This document shows, piece after piece, positions 12,249 to 61,240 of a stretch of DNA of 64,000 nucleotides. The DNA is taken from assembly GCA_950106755.1 (NCBI GenBank), contig OX467089.1, positions 29,617,345 to 29,681,344 on the forward strand. Direction: 5' to 3'. Every line of letters starts with the position of its first letter. Within the stretch, counting starts at the first letter, position 1. The position numbers and the translations under genes are program-made. The notes beneath the pieces are model-generated. The model made no database searches. It saw only the letters and a list, made by a program, of their open reading frames with translations, and was not told where the DNA came from. The DNA comes from Climacium dendroides. Lineage: Eukaryota; Streptophyta; Bryopsida; Hypnales; Climaciaceae.

Positions 12249-12310
12249 AGGAACCTCTTGTAAATCCGAGGACTAAGAGGAAGAGGTTAGCTTCAGTGCT
12301 TGTGTCCCCG

Positions 12311-27181: not shown

Positions 27182-27577
27182 ATTTGGAGGTCCAGCCGGA
27201 AGAAATGGCCAGGCAAGTCACCCGATTGAAGTATTCGACATTTTACGGGGATGGTAGTCAGGATGTAGATAATTGGTTGGTAGAATTCAATTCTACTACC
27301 CAAGCCAATCAGGAAGATTGTCGCAACCTAACTTTTTGATTTTTCTCTCTATCGTGTTCTGTAACACGGAATCCGGATTGAGTAGACCCGGATTAGCATG
27401 AAAGAGGAAAGAAAAGCCAAGGGTTAGAAAGCCTAGAAACATAAGCCCTGAATGAACAAGATTAGGGAGCGGAACGGATATCAGAAACGTATCCGGTCTA
27501 GTCCCCTAATCGGAGGAACGGATTTAGGATTCGCATCCGAAAAATCGAAAAAAATAGTAATGATGAGGTTTTTGGGG

Positions 27578-27584
27578 TATAAAA
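27578..27584 (+). promoter_or_regulatory. TATA-like box of element C
   Basis: TATAAAA, 260 bp into the element and about 344 bp upstream of the ORF ATG at 27928. It implies that a transcript starting in the LTR would carry the embedded ORF as its first coding region. Confidence 0.5.
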
Positions 27585-27927
27585 GAGACTGTTTTAGGGT
27601 TTGTCTGTCATTTGCACCTAGGAGCACCAGCGTACTTGGCGCGCTCTCAATGCTTCGAGTGTGTGTCTGCAAATTGCGTGTGTTTTGTGTGAATTGTACA
27701 AAGTCTGAGAGTTGTGAGTGAGCGCATTTGTTTTCTTTACACGGACGCAAAGATTAGAATAGAACTGAGTGCGTGAGCAAGGCGGAAAGTCAGAAAGAGA
27801 AAGAGAGGAAAAGGGAGCGCTGCAGCACTTGTGCATTGAGCGAATCGGCCAAGGTCGAGAGGAGCGTGTGAGGAAACGGGACGTGCGGCTAGGAGAGAAG
27901 AGAGGTAGTGAGCTAAAAGAGAGACGA

Positions 27928-32778: not shown

Positions 32779-33536
32779 TAGCATATGGGATCACAATCTT
32801 ACTCTTAGTACACTCAATTTTTCAAGCAATTCACTTCAACTCCCATGTCATGCCCCTATCTACTTGGAGTGTCCAATGAACCTTAGTCTGCAATGGGGGA
32901 ACTTGGGGGTGACTTTCCAAGCCTTGCAATAGACTAGGTAGGGAGAATGGAAAGACTTTTGATCAAATAGGGCGCAATGACGCCCTGCTTCTGAAGTGGA
33001 CAAGAGAGTGTCATACATTTCTAGAAAGCTCTTGACAATACACTTCTAATGGCGTAGAGAACGCGCAATTTAGAGTTGTGAGCTAAAAGTTATGGTCATT
33101 CAAAGTTGACTAGGTCCCATTGGCGCCGGGACACTTGAGGGCTAGGTGTCAAAGTGTGAGGGTACCCAATGAATCCCACAAGAAAGTATGGCATGTGGCA
33201 TATCTTTGGAAAGCTATGAACACAAGGAACTTAGAATGACAAGCATTACGAGGTTCTAAGGCATGAGTCAAAAGTTATGGCCAAAAGATGAGCAATGGTG
33301 AAGGCGTGACGCCTCCCTCGGTGAATCCGAATCTTTAGAGGGCCATAACATTGCGAGGACTTGTCCAAATGGGATGAGTGAGAAGTCCATCGACATCTTA
33401 TCATCGTGTAGATGTCTAAAATGCACTCGCATATCAAATTTGGAGCTCTGAATGCAAAGTTATGCCGGTTGGAAGTTCGGGAGTCCAAACAATGACGTAA
33501 CTTGGCGATTTGGGTTGGAAGTGGGTGGTCTTCTAC

Positions 33537-35760: not shown

Positions 35761-36376
35761 TCTACAACCCAAGGTTATCCAAGGACTTCCTTCGACCTAG
35801 AACGAGGGGTTTGCCAAATACCACAGAGAGTACTATAAAGAGGGGTTGGTCTCCCTTCTCACTCCTTCTTGAAGCCTTGGTGAGTTCCGGTGACTCATAG
35901 TTGGTGGTGGTGACTTCACCACCACTTCAAGGTACCATGGGACACTTGTGTGTGTCCCGTGGCATCGGTTGGGTGGAGTCCCGCTCCTTACTAGGCCTCC
36001 TTGGATGTGTTCCAAATTGTGAACGCTAGTTATCTCTAGTGGATGAGTAGCAAATGCAGAAAGGGCTAGTATGGAGTGGGGTGATACTCAAGGGCGGTTA
36101 GGATCATGGTCAGTAGTGCCGCCATGGGTCCTTGCACATTAAGGTGGAAGTTTTGCCCCATGTTACTAAGTGACATGCTTGGTGTCACGATGGGAGTGTG
36201 TGCTAGTAGTCCCGGCAATTGCGACTTGGCAAACTAAGTTGGAAATGTGGACTAGCACTGTGTGTGCTTGGCATGTACAATGTTAGATAGTTGGTGACCA
36301 AGTGATGCTGTAAGTGGGTTGTGGTGAACCTAGGGAGCTGTTGGAAGTTGTTAAGTGTCATTTGGGTCGCGACATT

Positions 36377-41761: not shown

Positions 41762-42215
41762 AATGTAATATTCATTATAATGAGAGTATTCTACTGAAAT
41801 GAGAGTTACAGAAGTCTAATTTCATTCAAAAACGGAGGAGAGAATTCCTCAAACAATATTCAAATCATATAAGAATTAAAATCAGATGAATACAAGTAGG
41901 AATCAAATATCACAACTACAAGGTAAATGTTCATATTGACCTTTCACTTGTACACCATGAGTTGTTCCATACATCTCCAACTATGCTTGAGTAAGGCCAG
42001 TGACACTATATTACAGGCAACGAACTATAAAGGCTAGTAATGTAGTTCATTACATTGCACTATGTACACTGTAAAAGCTACAAGTGTGATTCACTCGAGT
42101 GCTAAGTTGTTTTGTAATATGAACATTGAGCTTTCATGAAGCATGAATGTATGACTCTATACTATGAACAAGTACTATACGTGTCATTTACTCTTGAGCT
42201 CTACAATTGCCTTCG
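41762..42215. other. AT-rich boundary region
   Basis: Starts where element D breaks off. No gene seen. It could be the edge of the palindrome-bearing unit that follows, but no terminal repeat was identified. Confidence 0.35.
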
Positions 42216-42619
42216 TCATCTTCGGCCTGTGGTTGTACTTGCTTGTAATCCATGAGCTTGGAAAGCCCTCATACTTCCTAGAACATCTGAGGAAGGACCC
42301 ACGTCCTCACCATATAGTTTCCGCTTTGTTGCTCTATCGCAAGGAGAGGACGACATCGGTGTAGCAAAAACATCGCTAGACTTCATGGGCGATGGAGAAC
42401 ATGATTTTAGACGATGTGGAGCTGAACCCGGGGGACTATCCACCACCCCATCATCAACGGGCTTTAGGGAGAAGTCCATTGTCGAATTTGCAATGGCAGC
42501 CAAACACTTGAAGTTTCCTGTACTCAAATTAGATTCTGCCCGTAGTCGGAGAATGAGTCAGCTGATGCAGTGTATGGAAGACTGGTGTGTTGAACAGGAG
42601 AGGACAACGTTCCCAAATT
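42216..42619 (-). pseudogene. Unrecognised exon-like ORF downstream of the FCP1-like gene
   Basis: On the minus strand a pyrimidine-rich TTTTTTTTCTTAG acceptor at 42621 precedes coding-like sequence. After a probable frameshift near 42555 the frame runs MDFSLKPVDDG, SCSPSPMKSSDVFATPMSS and KRKLYGEDVGPSSD, serine- and proline-rich, to a stop at 42216. It may be the last exon of a separate gene in the cluster. Function unknown. Confidence 0.35.
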
Positions 42620-42730
42620 CTAAGAAAAAAAAGAGATTAGAACAATTCAAACAAAAACTGTAACTATAATTACATTTATAAGTAAACTCCAATAACAAAT
42701 ATGCAGTTTAGGAAGTCCTGGCCATTGAAT

Positions 42731-42921
42731 GAGGTCGACCCGACCTAAACTGGAAGAAGAAGAAAATACAGAAAGGTATTCATGAAAAAAATATATCATA
42801 GAAATTACGTATATCTCTAACCATACATGCGAATGCACGAGCCATTAAGGTCCAGGCGAGCTGAAGTTCACTAGGAACTGAGAGAACAATGCACATGCCA
42901 TTCAAGACGACTCGACCTGAA
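42731..42921. repeat. Interspersed palindromes, downstream cluster
   Basis: GAGGTCGACCCGACCTAAA (42731-42749) and the weaker TTCAAGACGACTCGACCTGA (42901-42920), with a degraded site near 42847-42868. They belong to the family found in the introns and upstream array. Confidence 0.6.
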
Positions 42922-43019
42922 CTAAAGCAATAATTAAACTACCGTCTCGTAACACCGATTAGACGATGACACAGTCACTGCATCGACGTGGTTGATGAAC
43001 AACAATGAAATGCAGTGTG

Positions 43020-44193
43020 CTATTGGTACGCTGAAGACACTCTGACTGCATCCATAAGACTATTGTACATGCCACGATTTCTCTCGTCATACAACATCTT
43101 CCGCCCAATCTTCCCCGCACTACTCTTGCGAAATGATTTCAACCCTTCATCTCGAGCTATGTGAAGTCGCTTGAGCCAGGGCAAAAGGACCATATCCAAA
43201 TATGAGTCCCTGGGGCCGTTACCCTTGAGAGACCAATTGATGGGGAGAACAACGTTCTCCGACTTGTTCATGAAGTGCTTCATAGGACTGTCATCAACTA
43301 TGATAGTATTCTCTCGAAGAAATTGTCCATTGAAATTATTAAATAAGGTGTTTGCGTCCTTCATGAACAGGTCCTTGGTAGTGCCTGACTTCTTGAATGT
43401 GACTATCCGGCCTTGTTCCTCACACTTGAGCGTCGTGCAAGACTCTTGCCCAAGTATAATGCGGGGCTTATCCGGACTGACAAAAAGATAATCGACAATT
43501 TTTTTAATGGTAAACTTCTTCATCGAGCTCCAAATAGAAACGTGTGCTATCAATCCTAGCTCACGAAGAAAATGAGCGCAATTCGGGTGGACGAAGACCG
43601 CCTTCGGTCCCACAATCGCAGGAATCGTGGCGGAGTGCGGTTGGTTTGCATTCCCGACGTGTAGAGCCCACCCCTTGTACTTGGCGTCTTCACAGACACA
43701 CAAGACTCCATTCAAGTCCAGGACAACATTCAGCCACTTCTCGGCGACGGTCACCCTAGACGTCAATGGAATCTCAACATCCTTCGACGTATCTCCACGT
43801 TCAGATGGGGGAACCGATCCCTGCTATCTAACGGACAAATGTGCAGCTAGTTACTAAGCTGCACTAACACATTTCGAAACTCAGGGGAAAGGCAAAATCT
43901 AAACGTCGCAGACTATGAATACAGAGGTACCTATTAGCGCAGAGATCAAGGATGCATGGGTACGAGGTTACCTTTTCCCGCAAAGACAACGTCGGTCCGA
44001 CAGGGTCTGGCATTTCAATTTCCAGAAGCTGAGCGTTGGGAATAGAGACGTCATCATCTAAGTACATGGACTCAGATTCAGGTGCACCTCTACTTGTAGC
44101 TTCCATACTGCCACAACCAAATGGTGGACATTGTACATGCTGTACAGGAGCAATAGATTTTGGAAGATCATTCGGTCCAGTTGAGATAGCCAT
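43020..44193 (-). CDS. FCP1-like (NLI-interacting factor, HAD) phosphatase-domain protein, two exons
   Basis: Exon 1 (44193-43972) has an ATG and ends AAG|GTAACC. Exon 2 (43820-43020) follows a GATAGCAG acceptor; both are phase 0, giving about 340 residues with no stop. Residues 106-114 read VVLDLNGVL, so Asp109 (nucleophile position) is kept but the second Asp of DxDGT is Asn111. Motif II is SIWSS (170-173) and motif IV is IIVDDSPM (Asp250, Asp251). In FCP1/SCP enzymes this fold removes phosphate from serine residues of RNA polymerase II and other proteins. The DLN form is, to my knowledge, found in plant FCP1-like proteins of uncertain activity. It follows the ParB-like and low-complexity genes on the same strand. 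A decayed relative is at 13595-15264. It is the most intact gene in the cluster. Confidence 0.7.
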
Positions 44194-44449
44194 CAGAGGA
44201 GGTTCTGCAATTCAAGAAGGGCCAGACAAACAAGACTTAAAATTTTTACTGAAAATCCGTATAATTGATTAATAAAATTGAGTACAAAAAGGTCATCATC
44301 TTACATGAAGATATGGATTAGCCAAAAAATTGTTTTCTATCAAAAAGTTTTGTCTCCCACACTAAGGGCCTCTATCTAAATACAACCTATGACACAAATC
44401 AGCTCGAGTCGAGCTAATTCTATACAAATGACATCGAATGATTGTGTGG

Positions 44450-45040
44450 TCAACCTGATGGTGCATCTTGGCCATCCAATGCATCACTCTGATCATCATC
44501 AATGGCGTTGACAAGATCCGCAAGCATCTTCGGGCTAGACTCCAAGGTCTCTGAGGACCTGCCACCATCAAGTGGAACTTGTGCCATGTCCTCGTCATTA
44601 GGTGGAGGTGTAGGGGTCGAGGGGCACTCCTCAGTAGGAAGAGGAGCTGGAGGATCTGCGGAACCTGCAAGAGGAGTGAGAGAGACAAAAGGCACCCTAG
44701 TCAATCGTGGAGTGGTGGGTATTAAGCTTGAGGTTCCACTCATCGTTGGTCTTGTTGGCGCTCCTTGCAACAAAAGCTCCTGGTCAACCTCAGACGGCTG
44801 CACGGATGCTAGAGGCATGGCCCCACCAAGACTGTTCATAATGGCCTCGAGTTTGGAGTCATTCTTTTATGACATAGCCACCATAAACTATCGCAACTCC
44901 GCCATCTCCCTGGCCTGCCTCTCAAACATCATCTGGTCCTGTTCCTGCCTCCTCTTGAACTCTGCAATTTCCGCCTCATAGTCCTCGTCGGCTTGCGATC
45001 TTTTCCTCTTTCTCTTCTCCCTGGATGTTGGAGACGGCAT
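44450..45040 (-). pseudogene. Low-complexity protein, coiled coil then proline/threonine-rich, with stops
   Basis: ATG at 45040 opens MPSPTSREKRKRKRSQ, a nuclear-signal-like basic run. A charged helix (DYEAEIAEFKRRQEQ, ...QAREMAELR) and two stops (TAG and TAA near 44890-44860) follow. In the same frame come MNSLGGAMPLASVQPSE and a Pro/Thr/Ser-rich tail to 44450. Only 42 bp separate its start from the stop of the ParB-like gene. No recognised domain; it could be a fused part of either neighbour. Confidence 0.45.
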
Positions 45041-45524
45041 GGTAAATTAGTCAGGCAGCTGACCCGACGACGTTGATGATCCCTAGATGTTTTGAGAGAT
45101 GATCACTGGAGGGGGGCTCCAATCCATGGGAACGTCATCGTCGTCGTCATCATCGGCTGCCCCATCGCTGTCGGAGGACTCACATACTATAACTGCAGAT
45201 GACCTCCAACCGGACGGCGTGCTTGCCTCTCCAATTGCCTTCCCCTTGCGCTTTGATGACGACAACGTGTTTGACCCCGATGGTTGGCGCGGGAATTTGC
45301 CTTCATCAACAAAGTATCCCTTTGGAAGAAAACCGTTCTTATCCAGTTTCTTTGCAGTGGTTGCAATTTCAGTCCACTAGTCAGATTCCTCCGAGTCCCC
45401 CACAACAAACACATTAACCCCACTCATCTGCAAAGTTACACACATTGTCATCAGACTTCGATGGTATGAAAATTCCCTAACGAGGATACAATGGCATTTC
45501 AAGTAATGTCAGCAGTAGGTTGTG

Positions 45525-45708
45525 TCAGGTCGACCCGACCTGAAGTTGAGGCTTCGGCACTCAATGCCACCGGATAGGTCAAGCCGACCCGCGGAACAAT
45601 TCACTCCAGCCAATGCTATATGTTAGGTCCACCTGACCTAACTTCTATCACCTTATATTTACAAGATCGAAATACATTTTCATTTTATTCAAGTCGAATC
45701 GACCTTAA
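45525..45708. repeat. Interspersed palindromes within the 45.4-45.75 kb intron
   Basis: TCAGGTCGACCCGACCTGA (45525-45543, perfect), a degraded site near 45578-45598, GTTAGGTCCACCTGACCTAA (45622-45641) and TTCAAGTCGAATCGACCTTA (45688-45707). All lie inside one intron of the ParB-like gene. A related AATCAGCTCG...CGAGCTAATT site is at 44398-44420. Confidence 0.7.
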
Positions 45709-47153
45709 CCATAGCCAAAACATGACATTGTGGAATTAATTGCGTTCAGACTTACCATCGCAGCACATGTGAACTTTGACCTACCAAAGAATGACATTAC
45801 GCTTTGTCCAGGAGCGCAAAATTTCCTCACGAGATTGAGGAAAAACTCCATCCGTAGCTCAGTATTGTTTATCCTGAACTCTATCTCGTTGTAAGCCCCT
45901 GGCCTCGTGAATGTTTCAGTGTTGGGAGCATCATAGGAAGACCTCATCTTCACCGTCCTAGTGATGCTTGGGCTTTGCAGAATGGTCAGATAAATTGGTT
46001 CCACCGCCTTCTTGCTTCATGCAGACAAGTCACCGATACGCTCATTGGGTGAGGGCATGTAGTTAGAGAAATTCATGGAGTACTCCTTCAACGCGGGATT
46101 GCTGTCTATGAAGTGGAGTGCCTGTGTTTGCTCGGTGAGGTTGGAACAAATGAGCACCCACACCGAAATGTCCTCGAGAAGGGGTTGACTCTTTTCTTGG
46201 AAGGACTCGACAACTACTGCGAAGTATGGATCGGCTGGCGTACACTTAGACTTTGACACGACATTTGGAGTGTAACGTAGGTCCCACACTCCAAGCTTGA
46301 TGTCCTTCATGTTCTCTGCAGTGAGCACGCCTCTAGGCTAATCTTGGTGCGCCTTATACATAACGTCATATGGATGATAGTATGCAGTGGATTTTGGGGG
46401 CACAAAGTTGTTTCTCTGTTGCAGGAAGACCCGGAAGAACTCAACTGTATACATTGACATTTCCTCAACGCTCTTCCCCTTTGCTCTTGACTGCTTCGCC
46501 TCCATCCAGTATTCATTCCCTGGTTGCTCTAGCAGCACGTTCATGGTGGCACTCGTGAAGTTCCGACTTCGTTTAAACTCCCTCCACTTCTCGTGGTTCA
46601 GCTCGTTCAAGGAGGACATGAGTCCGAGGCTTGCGTCCAGGGCGTGAAGCTCCATCTTCACCTTGTGCTTGCGCTTCCTTCTCTCCACCCATTTCCTAGC
46701 AATGTAGCAGCTCTCTTGTACAATAGAGAGAAGCTTGATTGTGACCTTCAAGTACTCCTTGTTCTTGCTCCCTGGATTTTGATGCAGAATATATTCGGCC
46801 AGCTTCGACAAGTCATTGAAGGAAAGGTTTTCTGAGCACTTTGAAAAACTCATGCGTCAGATTTCCTTGCTCGGGCTTCCAAGTCACCTTCTCGTTGTAC
46901 TTCAGTCTAGTATTGAAGTCTATCAACTCCCCATGCGCAGCACTAGAGATGACCTCGCTCCACAGGTTGTACACGTCGTCCGGAGTTGTGATTATCTTGA
47001 GCTCGTTTCGGATCTCGAACTTCTCCTTGGCGTCCTTGCCTTTCGTAGTCTTCTGGGCCTTTAGTACATCTAGTAGAGCAAACCGCTTGTACATTGCCGA
47101 TGAGAATTCCTTCAACGCAATTTTGTATTTCACGGTCAATTTGGAGCTCTCTA

Positions 47154-47332
47154 TTCAGCTCAGACCGACCTAAACTACACATTTCATTTTTAACGTCAAA
47201 TGCACCTTTGACGTTCTGCTTACTTCGAACTCTTCATTCATTATCACGTGAAGAATATCAAAACATGACCTATTGTGGTTGGAACACTAGGTGGCAGACG
47301 ACATTCACAGATCAAGTCGACTTGACTTGAAT
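47154..47332. repeat. Interspersed palindromes within the 47.15-47.34 kb intron
   Basis: ATTCAGCTCAGACCGACCTA at 47154-47173 (degraded left arm) and TCAAGTCGACTTGACTTGA (47312-47330), again inside an intron of the ParB-like gene and not in its exons. Confidence 0.6.
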
Positions 47333-48821
47333 CTCTTACCATGAATTTCTTCTTATTTGCTGTACTCTCAACGTTTCGCCTGACGTTGGACATTGTCGCT
47401 ATTAGGGCGGCTTCCTTTGGATTGCGTGGCCTCCCCATCAGTTCCCACACTTTTCTCGCTCCCAGAATGTTTGTTGACCACAAGGGCTTCTGAGCCACGA
47501 AGTGGTTGACCCTATTGTAGTACGCCGATATGTCGCGTAGTTTCTGGGCATCTGTGGACCAGACCACGTAGCAATCCCATTGACGAAAGTTCTTGACAAT
47601 CTCTTCATCAAGGGGTTGATCCACCATCATTTTGTTGGCAGTCACACTATGCTGCCCATTGATGATGTAGAAGTTTTTTCTTTCAAGTGCTGGCCAGTCC
47701 TCCGGCTTTGGCTTCTCGAAGCAGTCCACTGGCATGACACACAATGTTTGTTTTGTGGATTTACCTGACATTTCCCAGAGGTATGTCATCATGTCCTCCG
47801 TGAGCTTCATCTCATGGCTACGGATGTTTAAGTCCTCTGGGGCCTTGATGAGCTGCTTAATGGAAATCGTCTTCTTATCCTCCAAGCCAAAGATGTAGGT
47901 GTCCGTGCAGTGCTTCCAGTAGGCCTTGTATGCTTCCGCGGATGCAATGTAATCGTGCAACTTCTTGGCGTCATAAGGGAAAAGAACCTCAGTTACCGCA
48001 GACACAAAACTCTGGTAAAACTACACTAGGGGCTTGCGCTGCTGCTGCTGAGGTTGATGCCAACTTACTTAGCTTGGGAGTTGGTGGAGGAGTTGTGGAC
48101 TGCTTGGACTTTCTTGTCCCCTGACTCTGTTGGGTTCCAAGTGTACCCATTGAGCTCTGTCCCTCCACGTTACTTGGAAACTCTTGGGAGATAGTTCTGA
48201 CAGTCATGTCTTTCTTCTTCAGCTCAAGTTTCATCTTCAGAATTGTGAAGTCGTTCAGGAGTGTCTTCAAGCGAGAGTATAGGGCCTTCCCCGTTGCTAA
48301 CTTCCCGTCCTTTGTCTTGAAGTAGTTGTGGTCAACTTTCTTCTCAAGGTCGGGTATCTTTGTTTTGTACTCAGTCGGTTCCAACGTTGAGAGGAAGTGC
48401 AATATGTTGAAGGCACATCTTGAATGAGGAGTCCAAGCGAATAGTGAAGTGGTAGTGCTCGCTTTCAGGCTGTCCTATCACAGTTGTAACACACCGAATT
48501 TTCAAGAATGGACCACTGTCTTGGGCGACGTCCTTTATCTTCTCATCAAAGGATATGTTGAAGAAATGGTCCGTGTCTTTAAATTTTGCATCGAAGCAAA
48601 TGAGGTTTTTGAATGGAATCATGTGGAGACTCCAACTCTCAACCTTTTCGGGATTTTTGAATTCCCAGTAGTCTCCGTCATTGTCAAAGTCATCCCCTTC
48701 CTCTCTAGAGGATTCGTGCGCACAACGTACGTAGAAGGCCTCCAGCTTCTCGATTTGGTCATCCATTCTGCATTCATTTTTCAACTGGGATGTTGTTACA
48801 ACAAAAGTTGTTGCTCTATTG

Positions 48822-49074
48822 ATTCAGATCGACTCGACCTAAATGCCTGTACATGGAGCTTCTACATTTCATCTTCTATGTGTTTGATCTACTTGAACTC
48901 GGTTCGTTTTGCTTCATACGCTTCAGATTGACTCGACCTGAAGTTCTAGTCGGAATATTCAAATATTTCTGCTACTGTAATGACCTCAGTGTTATTGATT
49001 AATGTTATCGGATCGTCCTAGTACGTATTGTTCTCACTCTGAAACTGGCAATTCAAGTTGGTCCGACCTGAATT
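48822..49074. repeat. Interspersed palindromes upstream of the ParB-like gene
   Basis: Sites at 48822-48844 (TCAGATCGACTCGACCT core), 48921-48943 (TTCAGATTGACTCGACCTGA core) and 49050-49074 (TTCAAGTTGGTCCGACCTGA core). The first starts 56 bp from the ATG at 48766, so they occupy the expected promoter region. Confidence 0.65.
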
Positions 49075-49212
49075 GCATGCGGTAGTGTTGTCATGTTTGT
49101 TGTTGGTAAATGGATGTTTATTAAAAATGTGTTTATTGATCAATTTGTTAATTATACTAGGAGTCTAATATCCTCATATAAATATATATGTTGGTTAAGG
49201 GAAAACGTATTT

Positions 49213-52200
49213 CGTCGTAGCACAGGAAAGCAAAATTCCTTCTCTAAGGCTCAATATTTCTTAAAAGAGGCCTTAAAGTGACTCGAGTATCGTTCCCACG
49301 AAGATCGAATTTCCTAGGTTCACAATTACTGGAAAATAGTAGAGTGATGGTCACAAACACACACACACACAAGACCCCAAGCAAAACAATAGAGCGGAAC
49401 TTCCACTTGGCCTCCTTGTTTCCTTGGACAAACACGACCGGATCCCTTCGGTCCAACAATTACTAATACACGTTAGACCGGATCTTCCTGATCTAACAAC
49501 ACTGACCGGTCTAACACCTACTTGTTTATCACACAGACTCTCTAACTGGTTAGTTTCCTACCCCACGGCTTTACACTACCCTATAACTCTCCCAATACTT
49601 CTATTCACATACCTTTGGTAGTTACATGTATTTACGTTTTAGAGACCGTAACCGGAATCCACATTTCCACAGATCTAACCTTAACCTCTAGTATTCACAT
49701 CCAATCTAGATCTCTACTTGTAACCATGTGGATTTTAACCTCTCGACGAGGGATCTACTTAATTGGGATTTAGGAAGGAAGCTTAACTCCTACCCGATTT
49801 TAAAGTGTCAGAAGTTTCACTATGTGATCAAACTTTCAAAAATAAACTTTCAAATCCTACAAATGAGAAAACAGACCGTCCTTACAGTTGGAAAGGAAAC
49901 GTAGTCGTGTCCAGCAGGTCACGCAAGCCGGTCTAAATCCTCCTAACCAATGCTACAACGACAGCCTACTGAGTTAGTTCTAAATCCGGTCTGAACTAGC
50001 GGGGAAGAGAGGGGAAACGAGCGCTACGGAGGCATGCTAACCCTTACTCTTTCCGGAGAATGGTCCTCAATTCGTACTCCCTTCCGAGTCCATTCCTAGT
50101 CCACACTAGAGATCCCTTCTACCTCCATCCCCACGCACTAAATCAATACTGAACCGGATAAACTTAGCATCCGGATACACCTTGTATCCACTTACACTCA
50201 CTTTCCAGCCTGGACTTCCAAAACACGGACAAGTGTCAAGTACACACAACTATGATTTGTTTCAATCATGCCAAGAGCAAACTCCCAAGTACTCATGAAT
50301 ATAAGAAGGTAAGATAAAGATGCACACTGGGACCAAAGAAGTCCTGGATTTAAATACTAAACTACTCCCTCAAAATCCTAACCTAAAAGTAACGCTCCAG
50401 CCAATCAGGGCCCAACACGTTTCATTCCCTTACTATTTTCTAGCCCTGTTGACTTTCACTCAAACTCCCACTACTTCCGCTAAAAGTGGATCTCAGATCC
50501 TATAATTACGGACCCGGTCACTTTCCAACTGCTAGTGGCCGTGTCACTCAAAAAGTAATTTTCCTAATTATGTACAACTATCCCAAAACTTCAGATTTTC
50601 ACCACCCTATCCTCAGAGATTTACCCTACGTAACTTTTTAAGTTTTTAACTTCTTCGCGGCCGGCTTCTTTCCGGTTCCGATCTTCTGTCCCTGGCGTAC
50701 CTTACCCCGAGCCGCAAGCTTCTTCTTCTTGGATGCTGCAGCCTTAGTCGCCCGAGTCAATGCCAATGCTTGATCCGGGTCAGAATATGGCTTCGAGTCT
50801 TCCTCAGTACCAGATTCTTCATCCTCGTCCTCTTCTTCTTCTTCTTCCTCCTCCTCATCGTCCTCTAGAATCGTCCTCCTCTTCTGTGTTGACATAATTG
50901 GAGGCTTCTTCTTCTGCGTGGTTGGTGTGGGCGGAACATTGGCCCTAGCACTCTGAGGAGTGGTTTCCTCAATCGTTCTACCCTTCCTGGATCCTTGTCC
51001 CTGTGATCCGGTCTTCTTTTCCTCCATTGACCCAGTTTCGCTTCCCAAAGTTAAGTTGAGTAGGGTGGAAGGAAATACCTTTTGTGTCTTTGCAAGAGGA
51101 GTCGGAGAGACTGGAGATAACTCACTTAGGTCGATAAACTTGGTGCTCAACCCTGGTTTGGGCACGTTCTTCTTCTCGAACGGTTCCGGTCCAAATCTCG
51201 TCTTCTCTTCAGCTGCGGCCTTCACCTCCTCCGACGTTTCTTTCGCCTTGCTTGTTGTCTCCACTTCTCCGGTCTTCTCTTCCTCAGCAGCCTCTACTGC
51301 TCGTGTTGTATTAAGAGCAACGTCAGTTACTTCCCCTAGTAGGGGAGTCATTTCTCCTTTAGGCTCTAACCGGATGGAAGAGCTTGGCACGTCCTCCACC
51401 TTGTCCTTTGCCTGTACTTCTTCTTCAGTGACCGGAAGGGGTGCTGGTGCGAGTTCCGGTTCCGTTTCCGGTCCCTGCTCCCACTCTCTTTGTTCTTCTA
51501 CCTCCTTCATCACCTCGCGCAATGGCTCCACTATTGCCTCCATCTTGCGGTGGTAGGATACTAATGCCATCATCAGGTTGGCTGGAATTTGCTTTCCGGT
51601 CTCCATCACCTTCTCATCAAACAACATTGCTTTATTGATAACTTCGCCTGGATTGCCGATGAACTCCCGGATTGCCTGAAGGTTCTTTGCGGCTGTTTTG
51701 GAGAATTTCTTCTACTGATTCAGTTCTTCTCTCTTCTCCTCCAACTCCCTCGTTAGCTAGTCCACCTTACTTGTGGCTTCGCTCAGTTCTTTCTTCACCG
51801 CTTCTTTCATCTTCCGGTCCAGTTGGGAAACCAGCTGCTGCGGCTGACTGATCTTAAGCAGTTGACATAATTCTTGAATGGTCTCCTGGCTCCTTCCGTA
51901 TTGGACCCGGAACTCACTGAGTTCCTTCACAATCCGACCCAGGGGATCTTGGTTCCAGACCGGATCGACTCCCTTACTACCCTCTCCTATTTCTGAGTCT
52001 CTCTCCTTCCGGTCCTGCCTCCTCCACTAAGACTTAGCTTCCTCGACCGGTATAGTGTCTGCCTCTGAATCTTCCTCTTCTTGCCCGACTTCCTCATCTG
52101 GGTCTTCTATCTCGAATTCTGACATGGCTTTGGCCGTATCATATGAATCTATCTCTCTATTTGTAAGCCAGCCATGTGCTTGATACAAGTGGTAGAGAAA

Positions 52201-53490
52201 AGGGGTTATAGGGGAAGGCTTAGACTTCCCTATACCTCCTACCAATCTCTTGATCTGATCTCTCATCACTACACCCCAATCTACTTTCCGGTCGCCCAAC
52301 AGTGCACCGAAAATAGTGTTCTCCAGGGTGACCATAATCCTGTTTGGTCGCTCTGGACTAAGGATGGCTGCTAGGTACTTCATTAAACGTTTCTCCCTAC
52401 CATTTATGCACTCTGCCACAGGGAAACCATCCTTCTTCGTTGGGGGATTCTGGAACTTACCCACATAGAAGCGATCCGTTCGGGAAGCCGGTCCCTTGTC
52501 CGTCTTCTTGAAATCGTACGTCTCCCTCCTCAGTGTTGGGGTCCAGTCTTCGGGCCGGCTTCTCGACGTCCCCTTCCACTTCCTTAGCGGCGCGCCGATT
52601 ACCTCCCTCATGATCTCCTCGTCTTTCAAATTCCATGGCTGGGCTAGAAAACCCTCACACCCCATCTGCCGGAGGTCTTCTTCTAGCTCCGCTTTCTCTC
52701 GTGGATCCGTTGGTACCACCGGCTTCACTATGCGCAAGGATACAGCTACCTCTTCTCTCACCATCGTGGGTTGTTCTCTCAAACCCTCTCAGTGACTGGA
52801 ATCACTCTTTGGAGTCTCACAATCACTCGCGCTCTAGTCTTCCTATCTCGCTCAAGGACCCTCCTCAAGAGTCGCCTCACCAGTATACTTCTAACTCTAC
52901 ACTCATACGTGAACTTCTAAGTGAACTCTCCTCTCGAGACCCGTCTGTCCTTAATCCGGTCCATGAATTGAGCCCGTAACTTCTTCTCTTTGGCTGACAT
53001 ATAAGTACACCGTGAATGTTCCTCACCAATCTCTTCTCCACGTAGTTTCCCCGCAAAAGGAGGTCTAAGCCACCTGCCCCTCCTATTTCTAGGGCTTCAC
53101 TCACTAGGGCCGTTACAGGTGACCGTTTTCCTCAAAATAGACCCGCTCTCAAGTGTGGTCTAGAACTAGGTAGGCACCCGTTACACCCGGATTGCTTGTC
53201 TTTCGTTTCCGGTCTCCGGTCCTTTATTTTCTTCCGGTTTCCGGTTTCTAATAAAAATCACTCTGACCTACTCCTAACCTACCTATGCCGTTTCCGGACT
53301 TTTTGTTTCCGGTTTCCGGTTACTTCTGTTAACACTATTATCTATTCTAAAGTAACCCTATTCCGGTATCCGGTTCCTAACTACTCACGGTCTACTTTTC
53401 TAACGAAAAACGAAAAAAAATAGGGAATAAAAAGTTCTATTCCCCTTATTTCCCTTCTAAACCTAAAGACTGGATTTCCGTGCTCCCACA
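49213..53490 (-). mobile_element. Element F: 4.28-kb ORF-bearing solo-LTR-like element
   Basis: On the minus strand it starts TGTGGGAGCACGG and ends GTGCTACGACG (one base off the expected CGACA). A perfect 5-bp duplication TATTT flanks it (49208-49212 and 53491-53495). It is inserted in the palindrome array. Its start is E-like and its end A/C-like. Its leader (53180-53400) is dense in TTCCGGT runs. No terminal direct repeats, primer site or pol. Confidence 0.8.
50638..52764 (-). pseudogene. MGC-PW family ORF in F, 708 codons with three TAG stops
   Basis: ATG at 52764 (MVREEVAVSL). The conserved domain (about residues 25-215) has MGCEGFLAQPWNLKDEE, PPTKKDGFPVAECING, LSPERPNRIMVTLENTIFGA and FLYHLYQAHGWLT. 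The single frame continues through TAG at 52027, 51757 and 51712 to the stop at 50638, with a coiled-coil centre, a Pro/Thr-rich acidic region, a 15-residue acidic run near 50850 and a lysine-rich C-terminus (GKKPAAKKLKT). No frameshift. Two of the TAGs follow sense contexts that suggest CAG origins. It is the longest member seen. Confidence 0.7.
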
Positions 53491-53495
53491 TATTT

Positions 53496-54006
53496 GCTGT
53501 ACCAGACTGCAGAGGGTCTTCCTTGTAGTTTAGGTCGGACCGACCTAATCTGCATTTAATTTTGACGATGATGTTATTTCTCTTCTGGGATGTTAGTGAC
53601 AATGTCTGCTACTCAGTTGCTTCCCTTGTATTGACAATGCTAGTAGGTGTACATTTCAGGTCGGTCCGACCTAAAATGCATGTTCATCTCATGTCAAAAT
53701 TAACCATGAAATAGCACGGACAAAAGCAGAGATTTGGGAGATATGATTTATGGGGCTATGCAATTCAGGTCGATTTGACCTGAATTGTAGTGTAGGTCAT
53801 GTGACGTACATTACCGGTACGTTAAAGAATTTATTTATTGGTCAATTTGTTTATAAATAGGTGTCTAATATCGTGATAGTAATTTATTTGTTAGTCCCAC
53901 AACTTATTTGACGCGTCAGATTGCATAGGGTCTTCTTTGTGGTTTAGGTCGGACCGACCTGATCTGCATTGAATTTTGACGACCATGTTATTTGTCTTTT
54001 GAGATG
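53496..54006. repeat. Tandem array with three palindromes per unit, middle segment
   Basis: Palindromes at 53530-53548 (TTAGGTCGGACCGACCTAA), 53654-53676, 53761-53787 and 53943-53963. The first type recurs 413 bp later. The text between them also repeats, for example GGTCTTC-TTGTGG/AGTTTAGG, AATTTTGACGA and GGATGTTAGT/GAGATGTTAGT. Removing elements F and G restores the spacing to the outer parts at 49050-49207 and 57831-58068. Confidence 0.75.
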
Positions 54007-54640
54007 TTAGTTGTCGTAGACCAAAATGAGAGGATGAGGATGGTTATATAGAATATATAAGTAAGGAGTGGACATTGGTAAAAAATTTTGATTTGCAAGA
54101 TGGCAAACTAATTATATTACCAATATTAACCCTACCTCACTATTGGATTAGTAGTAGATACATAATTTGGTTAAGAAAGATATTGTAAGATTCCTATTTT
54201 CCTAAAGATCCGGAACCGGATCTGCATCCGAGGAACGGAATAGGCGTCGAAAAATATACGAGGGCTGGAAGCAAACGCATCCGCACGCTACCGGAAGATT
54301 ATCGAGACGGGAAGAGGAAATCCCGGATCCAACCGTAATCCCATACATCACGGAGGACCGTTTTAACAGCTAGTTTCCTCCGCGATGATTGCGGAAACAG
54401 CTACTTTTCCAACGGCTATGACTGCTAGGAAGGGATACGCAGGGGTTTGGTTCCTCAAACCTCATTGTGTCTTTGTGGTTTGGGAACGCTCTTAGAGCAA
54501 GGTCTGCCTTTAGAGGTGTGAGAGGATTGGATGATCTTACTTTCCGGATCTTGTCGTGGAAAGGAGGAGGATTGACCGGGAGTTGTGGCAAGAAAAGGCA
54601 GGAGGTTTGAGTGGTGAGTGTTTTGGAGAGTTCTGCAACC

Positions 54641-56233
54641 ATGGTGAAGGCGGAAGCAAGCGGGTCATCTCCTTTCAAGATCAAGAGCATCTGTCTAGTG
54701 ATTCCGAAAGATGACGGAGAGAGGAAGCAGCTGGAGGAGGATCTGGGCCAATTCGGGTGTACGGGATTCCTCTGCCGACCATGGAGCTTGAAGAGCGAGG
54801 AAATGATCCAGGAGCTGATGAAGGAGCAATCGAACGAATGGATCAAGACCGTTCGAGCTCTGCCCGGAAGGTGGACTGTGGACATCTGGAAGAGGGTCTA
54901 TGACTTTCCTCGATCTGGAGAGGGGATGGCTTTGCGGGTACATAAGTTCGTGGAAGGTAAATTCTCTAATCCTCCTCACCCTAAGGATGGCTACGCAGTA
55001 GCAAATTGCAAGGTGGCAAGAGAGAGGAGGATGTTAGAATTTGTAGTACCGATCCTGTATCCGGAACGGCCAAACCGGGTCACGGTAACTTGGGCCAATA
55101 CGATCTTCGGAGCGTTGAGTGGGGAAAGGAAAGTGTTTTGGGGAGGAATAGTGAAAGATCTAGTAGGGAAGATGGTGAACGCCCTAGGAAACGCAAAGGC
55201 CACCTCCATTGGGCCATTCCTCTTTCACCTGTATGACTTCCTAGGTACTCTGAAAACTTCAGAGAAGACCATGTACAAGGCCGCAACCACCCTAATGAAA
55301 CTTAATCTTACTCCACCCCGAGAGGAAGAGGAAGAAGATGAGGGATCTGAGAGGGGATCCTCAGAGAGAAGGAAGGAGCCTTCCGAAAGGAGGACAGAGG
55401 CTGAGAGGGTTTCAGTCTCTTCTAAGAAGGAATCCAGAGAGAAGAGGAAAGTCTCGCCGGAACCAGAAGTTCTGGGAGAGGATACTTTGGAGAGGATCAT
55501 TTCGGATTTAGGGAGAGTCCGGAAGGAGCTTGACACGGAGAGAGGAGCAGTGAGGAATGTATGTGGACTGCTTGGAGGGATCAATGTGTCAGAACTCGCG
55601 GAGAAAATAGAAGGGTTGATCCGGGATAGTGAAAACCGGAAGTGGGAGACCCGCATCAAGGAGTTGACTAAGAGGAATGCGGATCTCCAGCGGCAAATTG
55701 AGAAGGGTGAGGAAAAGAAGAGAGAGGTGGAACGGCTTACCTTAGAGTTTAAGGGGGCCATTAGGAAAGTTGGGGCCTTTGTTTCCAACACTACGGATGT
55801 TGTAAACAAAGCCAAACTCTATGATGAGGGAATCCATGAGGTAGGACCGGAAGCCGCAGGTAAGGCTGTTTTAGTTTTGGTAGAGTATTCCGAGGAGATG
55901 GAGAGGTTCATGTTTGAAGTCCGAGACGTTCTTCACCAAGCAGAACGGTTTCCGGAATCCGGAATAAAGAGGAAGGATGAAGAGATGGAGCCAACCAAAA
56001 AGGATGCGCCCACAAAGACTCCAACAAAGACGCCAGCCAAGCGGGAAAGGCAGGAGGATGAGTTGACACCAACCTCTAAGGATATGGAGGGGAGGAAAGA
56101 AGGATCAGTGCACGGATCCGGATCCGGATCAAAGGATCGAATCCGGATCAAAGGATCGAATCCGGATCAAAGGATCGAATCCGGATCAAAGGATCGAATC
56201 CGGAAGTCGGAATCCGACTTAGGTACACCATAG
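54641..56233 (+). CDS. Intact MGC-PW family protein of element G, 530 residues
   Basis: ATG at 54641 in a favourable ACCATGG context; an in-frame GTG upstream is less likely to be the start. Residues 25-210 form the conserved domain: QFGCTGFLCRPWSLKSEE, HPKDGYAVANCK, VVPILYPERPNRVTVTWANT, IFGALSGERK and GPFLFHLYDF. A charged linker (215-280) and a coiled coil (about 285-400, with ELTKRNADLQRQIEKGEEKK) follow, then a KLYDEG block shared with A/C (KLFDEG) and H (RLFEEE). The C-terminus runs through a 19-bp tandem repeat and stops soon after. No known enzyme motif. I infer a retrotransposon-associated structural or regulatory protein translated from the LTR transcript; the family is unrecognised. 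It is the only uninterrupted member here. Confidence 0.75.
   Translation: MVKAEASGSSPFKIKSICLVIPKDDGERKQLEEDLGQFGCTGFLCRPWSLKSEEMIQELMKEQSNEWIKTVRALPGRWTVDIWKRVYDFPRSGEGMALRVHKFVEGKFSNPPHPKDGYAVANCKVARERRMLEFVVPILYPERPNRVTVTWANTIFGALSGERKVFWGGIVKDLVGKMVNALGNAKATSIGPFLFHLYDFLGTLKTSEKTMYKAATTLMKLNLTPPREEEEEDEGSERGSSERRKEPSERRTEAERVSVSSKKESREKRKVSPEPEVLGEDTLERIISDLGRVRKELDTERGAVRNVCGLLGGINVSELAEKIEGLIRDSENRKWETRIKELTKRNADLQRQIEKGEEKKREVERLTLEFKGAIRKVGAFVSNTTDVVNKAKLYDEGIHEVGPEAAGKAVLVLVEYSEEMERFMFEVRDVLHQAERFPESGIKRKDEEMEPTKKDAPTKTPTKTPAKRERQEDELTPTSKDMEGRKEGSVHGSGSGSKDRIRIKGSNPDQRIESGSKDRIRKSESDLGTP
56126..56201 (+). repeat. 19-bp tandem repeat, four copies, in the G ORF
   Basis: Four exact copies of GGATCAAAGGATCGAATCC, preceded by GGATCCGGATCC. 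Because 19 is not a multiple of three, each copy is read in a different frame, and copy-number change would change the C-terminus. A lysine/serine-rich ORF in another frame (56239-56502) resembles the C-terminal tail of F. Confidence 0.85.
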
Positions 56234-57830
56234 AGTAAGGCTCTCAACCCTCACCCGCTAAGAAGATTGTGAAGAAGGTTACTCCCGTCAGAGGAAGAGA
56301 CGTGCCTCTAAGGAGTCAACAATCCGCGGAGGACGAGTTTCCAAGCCAATCCGAGCGGGAGGAAAGTCGGTCGAGATCCGGAGAAGAGGATTCGGAAGAC
56401 ACCAGATCAGAAGAGGAATCGGAACCTGAGCAAATCTCACCAGCAAAGTTCAAAGGGAGAACCTCAACACCGTCTAAGGGGAAGCCACCCTTGAGTTGTT
56501 AGGAAGTTTCTAGGAAGCGACCCTAGCATGGTCAGCCAAAAACCCAAGTTTTTAATAGGTAAGAAGTAGCTTGGGAGGTGCTTTTCAGGTGCATGCACTT
56601 GGACTGCACTTCTTTTATTTTTAGGATTTGAGATCTCCATTTTGCGGATCGGATAGGGTTGGTAGGAAAGTCAACTTAGAAGGATAAGGAATGACACCTG
56701 TCATACTCCTGTCCTTTAGTTTTATTCCTTGGGACCTTTGGGGTTCCTTGGAGTGTGTATTTAGGGGGGCTGAAGTTAGTTTGAAGCCCCGGGGTGTTTT
56801 TTTATTTTTGTTTTTCAACACTTTGTGAATTGATTTCAGATTTCCACCTTATAAGTGTTGGCTTGAAAAGGCTAAGTTCTGTGTTGGTATGCCGTGCAAT
56901 GCTAGAACCATTGTTTAGTGCGGGTAGCTGGTTTGCAGGTGTGGAGGAAGACAAGTAGCCCTCGGATTCTGTTCAGGATCTGATTTTGAGAGCTTTGAGG
57001 ATTTGGTTAAGGAAAACTTTGTGTACTAAGAGGGTATTTTAGTTGCTGAAGTTCTTTGGGAGTCTTCTGAGTAGGATAGCCATTCTTAGGTTAGGTGAAT
57101 TCTTCAGAAGGGAGAACGAATGCTAGCCGATGTCTAATGAGGTCCTGTTGGATCCGGAAGAGAGGAACAGGAAGGTAGTTAGGATCTCTCAGTTATCGAA
57201 TGCCAGATCACGCTCTTGGGGTCCTGTCCGGATAGGTCTGTCGTTGTAGTACTGGGAGGATAATAGGGGTTTCCTGAGTGACCTACTAGTCTGGATCAAC
57301 ATCCGGATTAGTTGTGAGGAAGTAACTATTTCCTATTTCTTTTTGGTATTTGTTGTTGTTATTCTAAGTGGATCTTCATTTCACTCTAAACACGTTTGAA
57401 GGGTAGGGTTTACGTTCCCTTCCTAAAACCAAAGAGCGGAACCCTCTTGGTAGAGGTAAAACTAACATTTTGTGAGTTACTGCAATCAGATAGAAATCCT
57501 CTTTCCAGTTCCGCATCCGTCTAAGTCGATCCGGATAGGGAGGGGTAGAGGATTATGACCATTCTCCTTGTTTGATTACTGGTGATAGACTTGGAGTGGA
57601 TGTAAGGGAATCAGAACATGGAGAAGAGAAGATATTGAGAGAGAGTTTCATGTTGCAAATATTTAGATCCGGTTTTGCTTGGGTTTGGTGTTTTCCGAAT
57701 CTTGTTCCGGATATCTTGAGGAAACTAACGTTGAAATCCTGTGGGAATGATACACGAGTCATCTAAGGTGTTTTACATCAATTTAACACCTAAGGGTAGG
57801 ATTTGTGCTTCCTTGTGCTATAACATTAGT

Positions 57831-58068
57831 GCAATTGCTTGCCATTTAGTTGCCTTCTTTGTCCAGAAAATGCTAGTAGGTGTACATTTCAAGTCGGACC
57901 GACTTGAAATGCAGGTTAATCTCATCTGAAAATTTTCCATGAACTTGCCCGGACCAAGGAATAGATTTTAGAAGGGGATATGTTTGAAGGGGATATGCAA
58001 TTCAGTTTGATGCGACCTGAATTGCAGTTTGGTTCAGGTGCCTTACATTCGTGGTACGTTTAGGAATT
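57831..58068. repeat. Tandem array with palindromes, distal segment
   Basis: Palindromes at 57886-57910 (TTTCAAGTCGG with CCGACTTGAAA arms, perfect) and 57999-58025. The first palindrome is 124 bp from 53943 after subtracting element G and one duplication, the same spacing as 53530 to 53654. Similarity to the array unit ends near 58068. Confidence 0.7.
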
Positions 58069-58192
58069 TAGGGAGATAGGATGATACCCGGGTAGTATTG
58101 GGCTGATTCCGGGGAATTTGTGTGGTTGTGGCTGGTCATTTCTTTTCGTGACATTCTGAATTCTAATTCGTAGACCTTAAGGAAACCCTAAA

Positions 58193-58309
58193 CCCTAAGC
58201 AATGGCCCCTAAAGAAACCCTAGACCCTAAGCACTGAACCCTAAATAAACCCTAGAACTGAAGCACTGGACCCTAAACAATGAATGCCATTTTCTGAACC
58301 CTAAACCCA
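58193..58309 (+). repeat. Degenerate interstitial telomere-like repeats (CCCTAAA type)
   Basis: About nine CCCTAA/CCCTAG motifs in 117 bp (AAACCCTAAACCCTAAG, GAAACCCTAGACCCTAAG and so on), separated by short spacers such as GCACTG. This is the Arabidopsis-type plant telomere sequence. It lies just beyond the distal end of the palindrome array. Confidence 0.65.
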
Positions 58310-60004
58310 TAACAAAGTCATGTGCATTATAATTCACCTCGGGAATTGAAAAATGAGGACCTTGAAATGAAATGCAAATGGATTAATCTCCAAAACCTGC
58401 AAGATTATCCACATTTTCAACAGATTCAAGAGTTGAAAAACGCCAAAAAAATCAAAAACAACATCTCAAACCAGCAGACAACCTAAACCTAAAACCAAAA
58501 AGTAATTGTGCAAACCTACAACATCTCCAACAAGCATGTTTCCATCTAGCAACTCCCAAACCATGAATTTCTAACAGAAATCAACAAACCTCAAGAGAAC
58601 TAAAAAAAGAACGTATGCACACGATACATCCTGCAACTTAAACCCCACTAACACATTCATTGGACATTGCAGCTAGCTTTACAACAATCACAGAAATCAC
58701 TATTCAAAGCAGAGATGGTGCAAGAGAATTGAAATTAATACATACCTGAGTTTCTACAAGCAAGTGCTATGCAACTTCAGCCTCAACTTAGCTCCTACTT
58801 TCAGTGTAGCTGCTTATTATGGACTCTACAATCTTGTAACTCCAGTGCTACAATCGTCAATCTAAAATGCAAAAAACAAACCAATTTTAAAAAACTTACA
58901 TTGCAAACCAAATGCCAAGAAACAAACTGCAAACATAATCCAAGCAACTAGATTCCTTCCAACAATTAAAAAGAAAGATCCAATCTGTTGGGAGCAAATA
59001 CCTCCTAATACAATACACAACTCTTATCAGAAAGCAAATACCTCCAAACACAATACACAACTCTTATCCACAATAATTGAATTTCAACAAGATTCTTTGG
59101 GCACCCAACACAATGCGATTTCATCCTCAATTTTTTTAAATTGAAGACCATTTTTCCACAAAAACCTACATCACTGCAAGTACGACAAGCTTCAAAACAA
59201 GGCGCCCTTGCAATTCAACAGAACTTCAGTAGGTGAACAATTCCAATCACCGTTGATCAATCTTCAATGATAAAAATGAATGCTTCCCTTTGAACCTATG
59301 CTGAGTTACAATCCACTTACAAAACGCACTTTAACCAAGCATCGAATCCAGAGCTAGCAAATATGATCAGCCTCACAATGTAGGTTTGATGCAGGGCAAT
59401 GCCGAGTTATCTCATAAGAATACACATCATGTAAGCCTAAGCATTTTGAAATTACTCAATGGGGAGATTGCGCTATGGATTCAAATCCATTACTACAGTT
59501 TGCTGAAGCAAGGGAATCTATCTCATTCTAAGCCCCGATTTCAATTTGCGATGTCCACTGTCGGGGTTTTAGGGTTCCGGGTTTTGCGTGTGAAATCCTT
59601 CAGAGTAGAAACGTACGCAATTCGAATTTTTTCATGAAAGAGATTAGCGCCCTCGCAGGCGAGGTCAAAAGCACATATCGAACAGAGTGTTTCACGGTAC
59701 AATTCCTCCCTCTAATCCGATTCAGCAGCCATTTTTTTATTTTTTTATTTTCTTAAACTTTTGTTTCTTAATTTTTGTTTTTCACCTATGAATTTATCCA
59801 TCCATGCAGAAAAGATGCACAAGTGAGTGGGTGTCTTTAGGCAATTCTTACGTTCAAGACCTGTGAACAGGACCATTCGAAAACACGAAACCATGCATGT
59901 GTAAACACTAGAGAGCGCAAGGAAGGAAAGGATACCTGCAATGCTGCTACCGCTGTTGCTGCGCCCTGTGCTCCGGCGCCCTCTGCTGTTGCGAGCAATG
60001 CAAG
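58310..60004. other. AT-rich DNA, nothing recognised
   Basis: No supported gene. The ORFs at 59386-59637 (+) and 59745-60029 (-) have no recognisable domains. Confidence 0.35.
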
Positions 60005-60424: not shown

Positions 60425-61240
60425 CGTTGCCACAATGAAAACAAAAATAAAAGTAATTTTTAAATTTTCTTAAAAACTAAAAACAACTCAAAAATGCATA
60501 ACTTTCTAACTGTAAGTTGGAATGCCATGAAACCAAGCCTGTGCACCCCTCCTCGCCAAGAACTCTCCGACGATACCAAAATTGTGACCAAAATATGAGA
60601 AAAAGTAATTTTCGAATTTTTTAGAACCAAAAACAACTAAAAAATGCATAACTTTCACATCGTACTTTCAATCACCACAAAACCAAGCCATTGCACCCCT
60701 CCTCGCCAAGGGCTTTCTGACAATATCAAGTACGTGTGTCTTAAGCCATTGCCATAGTCAAAACAAAAGTAAAAATAATTTTCTAATTTTATAGAACCAA
60801 AAACAACTCGAAAATGCATAACTTTGTCATTGTGAGTCGGAATGCCACAAAACAAAGCTTGTGCACCCCTCCTCACCAAGGGCTTTCCGGAGGTAGTGTA
60901 TCTTCTGTTGTTGCCACAGTCAAAACAAAAATAAAAGTGATTTTCTAAATTTTTAGAACCAAAAATAACTAAAAAATGCACAACTTTCTCACCGTGAGAC
61001 GAAATGCCACAAAACAAAGTCCATGCACGCCTCCTTGTCAAGAGCTTTCCGACAGTACCAAGATTGCAACCGAAATATAAGAAAAAATAATTTTCTAATT
61101 TTCTAGAACCAAAAATAACTCGAAAATGCACAACTTTCACACCGTAGGTCCGAACACCACGGAACCAAGCCGGTGCACCCCTCCTCGCCAAGGGCTTTCC
61201 GACGGTACCAAGCACGGGACCGGGGGACACACAGTCCGGG
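60425..61240. repeat. Tandem array of five units, about 145-170 bp each
   Basis: Each unit carries AGAACCAAAAACAACT, ATGCATAACTTTC, a GGAATGCCACAAAACCAAG-like block, GCACCCCTCCTCGCCAAG and CTTTCCGAC(G/A)GTACC in that order. Units begin near 60430, 60590, 60760, 60915 and 61080. Units differ by 10-20 percent by eye. A minus-strand ORF of 191 codons (60655-61230) reads three of them in the same frame. Confidence 0.75.

Follow-up and report, generated by a model that had tools for sequence, protein, structure and literature searches.

Palindromes of a large moss DNA transposon as candidate sites of a family-specific regulatory system

What are the short palindromes that crowd into some 15 kb of a 64,000-nt stretch of the moss Climacium dendroides (GenBank assembly GCA_950106755.1, contig OX467089.1, positions 29,617,345 to 29,681,344; the whole stretch is called the window here), and to what kind of DNA do they belong? 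An earlier note, made from the letters of the window, had read them as a dedicated binding or modification system around a cluster of ParB-like and FCP1-like genes. We find that the palindromes are part of a giant DNA transposon of a plant genome, about 19-20 kb at full size and apparently undescribed, and that the ParB-like/FCP1 cluster of the window is one half of it, a point missed in that note. We propose, with a probability of roughly 0.6, that the palindromes are double-stranded DNA sites of a family-specific regulatory system of this large cut-and-paste element.

The palindrome, with consensus TTCAGGTCG-NNN-CGACCTGAA, spans 21 bp around a 3-nt centre and has the core GGTCG/CGACC in its main family. 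The window contains 15 sites with three mismatches or fewer, against 0.05 expected and a maximum of one among 100 shuffled sequences, all of them at 42729-58021; nothing with up to four mismatches lies beyond 42.7-58.0 kb, which bears out both the existence of a many-site family and its confinement as originally described, and the rest of the window, outside the element copy at 41762-59068, has no motif. Eighteen family sites, including weaker ones, were retained by eye from the list at up to six mismatches, leaving out 47306 (an overlapping register), 57910 (a half-site-like row) and the rows with five or six mismatches elsewhere. A sequence-agnostic scan for palindromes with at least 12 of 14 positions paired returned nine of odd length in the window (shuffle mean 0.65), five of which belong to this family, and six of even length (shuffle mean 0.2), none of which lies in the element. 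Window sites occupy introns and flanks and never exons mapped with tblastn, in agreement with their first placement. Four sites had been called perfect, and here the description needs qualifying: none equals the consensus (one mismatch at 45524 and 53764, two at 57888, three at 53529), although 57888 is close to perfect as a palindrome in itself.

In the genome (412.6 Mb in 123 contigs, for which all copy counts given here are lower bounds) the palindrome is common yet clustered near copies of one element, with 6403 sites at three mismatches or fewer against 64 for the reversed control. Among the 77 exact sites listed on contig C1, 58 have a listed match to the ParB-like or transposase-like gene no more than 13 kb away, a zone making up 0.7% of the contig, and 72 have a listed match or element end no more than 20 kb away (1.9% of the contig); five do not. 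Because sites concentrate near element copies, the motif is not equally frequent across the genome, and the co-occurrence with ParB-like genes extends to other copies. The exact main motif appears in three contigs of a viral contig collection, once each and inside long open frames, which we take as chance, and the exact GCTCG motif of a related family described below has no match there.

Comparison of copies gives the element sharp ends, the right end being shared by seven copies with differing flanks. The terminal inverted repeats (TIRs) are 25 bp long and imperfect (AACGTAATATTCATTAAAATGAGAG and AACACAATATTCAATATTTTGAGAG, alike at 19 of 25 positions), and genome-wide matches to the end patterns number 313 for the left and 264 for the right, with none in the controls. 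Exact 4-bp target duplications flank eight of ten end pairs spaced 18-20 kb apart (GTTT and CCTA in copies A and B; GGTT, ATAG, AGTT, TTCC, TGCA and ATCA in six of the eight further pairs), while one pair agrees at three of four bases and one has no duplication. By its TIRs and constant 4-bp duplications the element is a TIR-type cut-and-paste DNA transposon. Two end pairs of 5-7 kb have no target duplication, and their left flank is internal element sequence; in copy B (L027/L012/L013) the element's left end recurs internally at 12387-12589 as a 203-bp copy (96.6%), and several loci have a pair of left ends some 12.5 kb apart, where the two short end pairs start. Literature searches returned no description of this element, and a word search of PMC7466625 found neither ParB nor Sola. 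An endogenous giant virus was considered and rejected on the introns, the TIRs, the 4-bp duplications and the lack of relatives in the viral collection.

Two divergent genes make up the coding part. One, on the plus strand of the right part, is a transposase-like open reading frame (ORF) of 908 aa, present in at least 50 scored copies (itself included) at 95-100% identity. It matches Pfam DUF7869 (3.7e-41), a domain of unknown function that we take to be an RNase H-like transposase; scanned up to an E-value of 1, Pfam adds a weak Tc3-type helix-turn-helix (E 0.46) and no Mutator-type domain. The other gene joins ParB-fold, amino-methyltransferase-fold and FCP1-like parts, and its ParB-like exon has at least 132 matches in the genome, a few of which are two pieces of one copy. 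Its ParB-like protein has a ParB-CTPase (Srx-like) fold, its methyltransferase part a beta-class amino DNA methyltransferase fold, and its FCP1-like part scores 46.1, 54.1 and 50 bits to Pfam NIF against a cut-off of 21.8. The viral contig collection holds no relative of the ParB-like protein, of its alignment, of the FCP1-like exon or of the methyltransferase alignment, and scans with Rfam, for tRNAs and with PHROGs gave nothing informative.

Copy A (19.3 kb), whose coding limits we drew manually on the basis of open frames and inferred splice sites, contains 29 palindromes at up to four mismatches, every one outside the coding sequence, which takes up 7260 of its 19348 bp. They lie around the ParB-like gene and in its introns, in tandem units of about 417 bp, and in a cluster of nine just upstream of the transposase-like gene; 20 of the 29 are on the ParB-like side, and the left end is 968 bp away from the outermost site on its side, the right end 3.8 kb. 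At three mismatches or fewer, the count in each of the eight fetched regions is 19-28, and overall a copy carries some 20-30 sites. The sites of tandem arrays are spaced at 44-57 bp and vary in number from copy to copy, and an array at L026:100-676, beside an inverted neighbouring copy, has about 11 sites, of which nine follow one another every 44-45 bp, an instance of array expansion.

Three families coexist in the genome, with the cores GGTCG/CGACC, GCTCG/CGAGC and GCGCG/CGCGC, altered on both arms. The second core characterizes two database contigs, L001 and L002 (CADCWO010000269.1 and CADCWO010000243.1), which have the same gene, its exons open and its homologous introns bearing palindromes; the sequence-agnostic scan finds eight odd-length palindromes in L001 (shuffle mean 0.04), six of which belong to this family, as do all five in L002 (shuffle mean 0.02). 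Both contigs are filed under a cyanobacterial metagenome-assembled genome despite their intron-bearing, plant-like transposon genes, and that assembly seems to be contaminated. In the moss genome, GCTCG palindromes number 1349 at up to two mismatches, with none in the control.

The third core was predicted from proteins. Database relatives whose translation runs on past the 5′ splice site show the motif in their tails, and of 61 such tails (52 of 113 proteins gave none under the pattern used) 29 match one of four cores with at most two mismatches, against a mean of 0.15 and a maximum of one in 20 shuffles. Protein ends that fit a frame stopping within the motif number 11 of 113, against 0.09 for random cuts (maximum 2), and relatives of the FCP1-like part show no clear motif tails. 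Tails of proteins P0005-P0007 implied GCGCG/CGCGC before the genome was searched, with the ambiguity of back-translation that exact GCGCG fits also match GCTCG with one mismatch; 854 GCGCG palindromes were then found in the genome, against none for the control. One region was read for each alternative family. That of the GCTCG family (L048) encodes a ParB-like protein 44% identical to P0001 and a methyltransferase-like part 52% identical to that of L001 over the part contained in the region, and that of the GCGCG family (L049/L050) a ParB-like protein 48% identical to P0001 and 66% to P0005, one of the proteins from which this core had been inferred. A single one of the 12 sites in L049/L050 falls inside a protein-aligned stretch, and it is the read-through tail of P0005 rather than exon. 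The middle dinucleotides follow the family: GT..AC in 37 of 47 sites of copies A and B, 100 of 131 of copies C-H and 7 of 13 in the window; CT..AG in 8 of 8 (L001), 7 of 7 (L002) and 5 of 7 (L048); CG..CG in 11 of 13 (L049/L050). Relatives with 33-50% protein identity retain sites in the homologous introns, and several relatives have one soon after the 5′ splice site of intron 2. Elsewhere (G000:C3:15056610-15153058), pairs of GCGCG sites recur every 29 kb, four times, marking a tandem duplication of an element-bearing region.

The suggestion that paired changes between the arms preserve the palindrome thus applies between families and is not demonstrable within that of the window. For 22 of the 29 printed site classes of this genome (tandem repeats of one unit were left out, and 20 scanned sites in copies A-H could not be placed in a class), 27 of 88 pairs are matched at positions 11-14, where permutation gives 27.9, and 76 of 88 at positions 1-4, where it gives 74.2; compensatory change within one family was rejected on this absence of an excess. 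Paired positions do exceed permutation in the core of the window sites (positions 1-6, 86 of 108 against 76.2; 2 of 5000 permutations) and at positions 11-14 of L001 and L002 taken together (43 of 64 against 36.7; 102 of 5000), and a pooled excess over 34 sites was not counted because the families pooled there differ in core. Among copies of the main family, counting only columns with at least four other copies and at most two departures, 82 of 100 site-arm departures are C>T/G>A; the share is 79% in coding sequence, 38% in flanks and 36% in spacer. Arm variation within the family is therefore mostly explained by one-sided decay rather than compensation. The C>T/G>A excess would fit methylation of sites and genes in silenced copies; CpG content shows no clear split between introns and exons.

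What, then, reads the palindromes? Mismatches in the sites are of G.U type in 16 cases, of A.C type in 15 and of other types in 33, and in L001 and L002 the centre base on the sense strand is G in seven sites, C in eight and A in one. Because the centre is free of orientation, the mismatches show no sense-strand bias, the family cores are paired and the sites of copy A lie outside coding sequence, we consider the palindromes to be double-stranded DNA read by a symmetric protein. That some family-specific DNA-binding protein reads them is very probable. The odds somewhat favour the element's own ParB-like protein as this reader, and for the effect of reading, anti-silencing rather than repression is about an even bet. 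The sites do recur around other copies and in relatives, each family with its own paired core, as expected of a dedicated system tied to the ParB-like/FCP1 cluster, although their binding or modification is something we infer.

Under the reading we propose, the ParB-fold/methyltransferase-fold product would load as a dimer at the palindromes, perhaps as a nucleotide-gated clamp of the ParB kind, and the loaded protein would cover or mark the element DNA. Such marking might keep both element genes expressible against host methylation, or tune their transcription, with the FCP1-like phosphatase part acting on RNA polymerase II or chromatin. This scheme suggests self-recognition, in which the element would control its own copies through a tag spelled by family. 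A bolder version, which we regard as doubtful, is a nuclear transposon with its own parS-like system, whose clamp would load at intronic palindromes, spread and mark copies as self, specificity and palindromes switching together.

Several observations weigh against the proposed system. Outer-arm covariation is absent from the site classes of this genome, and departures per cell amount to 0.0277 in the arms, 0.0380 in flanks and 0.0266 in spacer, so that sites are hardly better kept than other non-coding DNA. The middle dinucleotide is unpaired in 10 of 47 (copies A and B), 30 of 131 (copies C-H) and 6 of 13 (window) sites of the GGTCG family, and a GCTCG-type site (44398) stands within the window's GGTCG-family copy. 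A fourth core, GATCG, fits the tail of one metagenome protein (P0003) and has no exact site in the genome; its near matches number 700 (control 0), and among those listed all but one are one-sided GGTCG variants. The stretch of 12 kb read for the GCGCG family gave no transposase match, and the GCTCG-family region holds only a 25-aa transposase piece. In the ParB-like protein, the structural model after residue 176 mostly has pLDDT below 55, too poor for a helix-turn-helix to show, and no C-terminal dimer domain was detected. The methyltransferase part has no DPPY-type motif at the expected place, showing DFR, DLR, NFR or DFC at what we take to be motif IV (40 of 41 rows with letters there), and may be inactive because that motif is missing. 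We also count against our reading that the palindromes could instead be read by a transposase or by a host factor.

In CACTA elements the protein TNPA binds repeats and assembles the ends for transposition, and the palindromes could likewise bind the transposase or a cofactor of it. Their family-specific motif and the nine-site cluster adjoining the transposase-like gene would suit such a role, which we nevertheless hold to be unlikely, given that the sites are not terminal and that most of those in copy A are on the ParB-like side. Intronic RNA hairpins, controlling splicing or giving rise to small RNAs, would account for the many intronic sites and for the one near the 5′ splice site of intron 2; the nine-site cluster, however, stands upstream of a gene on the opposite strand, and as a main role hairpins were rejected on the mismatch types and the centre base, which leave them improbable.

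Intronic positions, and positions upstream of the transposase-like gene, are also what one would expect of borrowed host enhancers read by a plant transcription factor, yet a single host factor is insufficient for a genome with three paired cores, each of which predominates in a separate family, and this explanation is less probable still. Least probable of all, to the point of being negligible, is that the palindromes have no function and multiplied through replication slippage or as minute mobile hairpins: arrays of variable number would then be natural, whereas the retention of sites in homologous introns of relatives and the paired core changes between families would not. An origin of single sites as micro-MITEs was rejected.

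Among known systems, bacterial ParB and Noc act at palindromic sites, parS and NBS. The moss element shares with them a ParB-CTPase fold and palindromes dispersed in the DNA that carries its gene, but it is a nuclear transposon, its protein has no detected helix-turn-helix or C-terminal dimer domain, and its sites differ in sequence from parS. VANDAL elements have a Mutator-like transposase, and the 908-aa ORF shows no Mutator-type domain in the Pfam scan. According to the portions of PMC10398659 consulted, VANC proteins bind short motifs, differing by family, in tandem repeats of non-coding VANDAL DNA in Arabidopsis. The likeness extends to a plant DNA transposon with short non-coding motifs in tandem repeats that expand and contract, and to motif differences between related families of one genome (PMC10398659, same portions). 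The statement in the earlier note that no feature type names such a system was accordingly too strong, VANDAL/VANC target motifs being a close functional analogue on that partial text. Unlike them, the moss sites are 21-bp palindromes with paired core changes between families and many intronic positions, and the element carries a ParB-fold/methyltransferase-fold/FCP1-like gene, presumably distinct from VANC, and a DUF7869 transposase-like gene. On the same portions, VANDAL/VANC comes closest in working, not in parts, and anti-silencing would apply to the moss element by analogy only.

Phages have fusions of ParB-CTPase and N6_N4-methyltransferase domains, as sections of PMC12704722 describe. 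The same two folds are encoded here by adjacent exons of one gene that, in contrast to the fusions in those sections, is eukaryotic and intron-bearing, continues with acidic and FCP1-like parts and shows no DPPY-type motif; the words plant, moss and transposon were absent from the main text of that paper in a word search. Sola2 transposons, in the sections of PMC3627910 available to us, have AT-rich 4-bp duplications, short imperfect TIRs (21 bp in some) and a transposase of about 890 aa. Likened by that description alone, the moss element agrees in duplication length, TIRs and transposase size (908 aa), and differs in duplications that are not solely AT-rich (GGTT, TTCC and CCTA, for example).

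The copy in the window (41762-59068) is decayed and truncated, missing the transposase half and interrupted by two retroelement-like insertions. Positions 41762-49212 align to 8688-16154 of copy A at 91.5%, and further matches join 53488-54011 to 16147-16673, 57826-59028 to 17086-18251 and 59033-59068 to 18216-18251. The left TIR (41762-41786, plus strand), placed by setting the left ends of copies A and B and the window side by side, is followed by three sites (42729, 42845 and 42901, within 42729-42921) 3′ of the FCP1/NIF-like phosphatase exon (43023-43823, minus strand; Pfam NIF 5.6e-12; tblastn 43% to L002). Beyond it come the GCTCG/CGAGC site (44398-44418, five mismatches from the GGTCG consensus) and the acidic/coiled-coil part (44453-45427, minus strand; stop-to-stop frames, tblastn 45427-45275), which is broken in the window and an open 333-aa frame in copy A. 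Intron 3 has three sites (45524, 45622 and 45688, within 45524-45708), of classes (12460, 12558 and 12623) that recur in seven of the eight fetched copies A-H. The exon with the beta-class amino-methyltransferase fold (45756-47109, minus strand) has in-frame stops in this copy; intron 2 has two sites (47154 and 47311, within 47154-47331), and its homologues in L001 and L002 have sites too; and the exon with the ParB-CTPase-fold domain and an INGQHS motif (47340-48768, minus strand) is frameshifted.

Three sites (48823, 48922 and 49052, within 48823-49072) lie in what is probably intron 1. Next come insertion B, with gag-like ORFs and approximate limits (49190-53485, minus strand; tblastx 43% over 207 aa to insertion A), a diverged 414-bp tandem unit with the start of the next (53488-54011; sites 53529, 53655, 53764 and 53943), insertion A, with TG...CA ends and a 5-bp duplication TTAGT (54012-57825, plus strand), and the remainder of the interrupted unit (57826-58070; sites 57888 and 58001). 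The sites upstream of the ParB-like gene probably belong to one long first intron split by these insertions. The two insertions are related, carry gag-like ORFs and lie on opposite strands, and self-comparison found no long terminal repeats (LTRs) in them.

Other repeats of the window are an inverted 3.5-kb pair (2221-5765 and 27318-30859, 98.4% identical), a diverged third copy of which lies at 11082-12252; LTR-like direct repeats of 698 bp in AT-rich DNA (19888-20585 and 21346-22043, 98.7% identical); nested tandem and inverted repeats with 75-95% identity (31491-36369 and 60426-61216); and an inserted repeat at 18386-18944 that is shared, at 90%, with a non-coding spacer of copy A (joined coordinates 19600-20158).

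To our knowledge, few cases of sequence-specific self-recognition by transposons have been described (VANC). If our reading is true, the moss element would be the second, built with parts of bacterial and phage type, and would link the ParB-CTPase fold to eukaryotic mobile DNA. Its palindromes would be short and predictable tags, the GCGCG core having been inferred from protein read-through and then found, and with a core altered on both arms between families of one genome, the co-evolution of a protein with dozens of sites per element would become directly testable.

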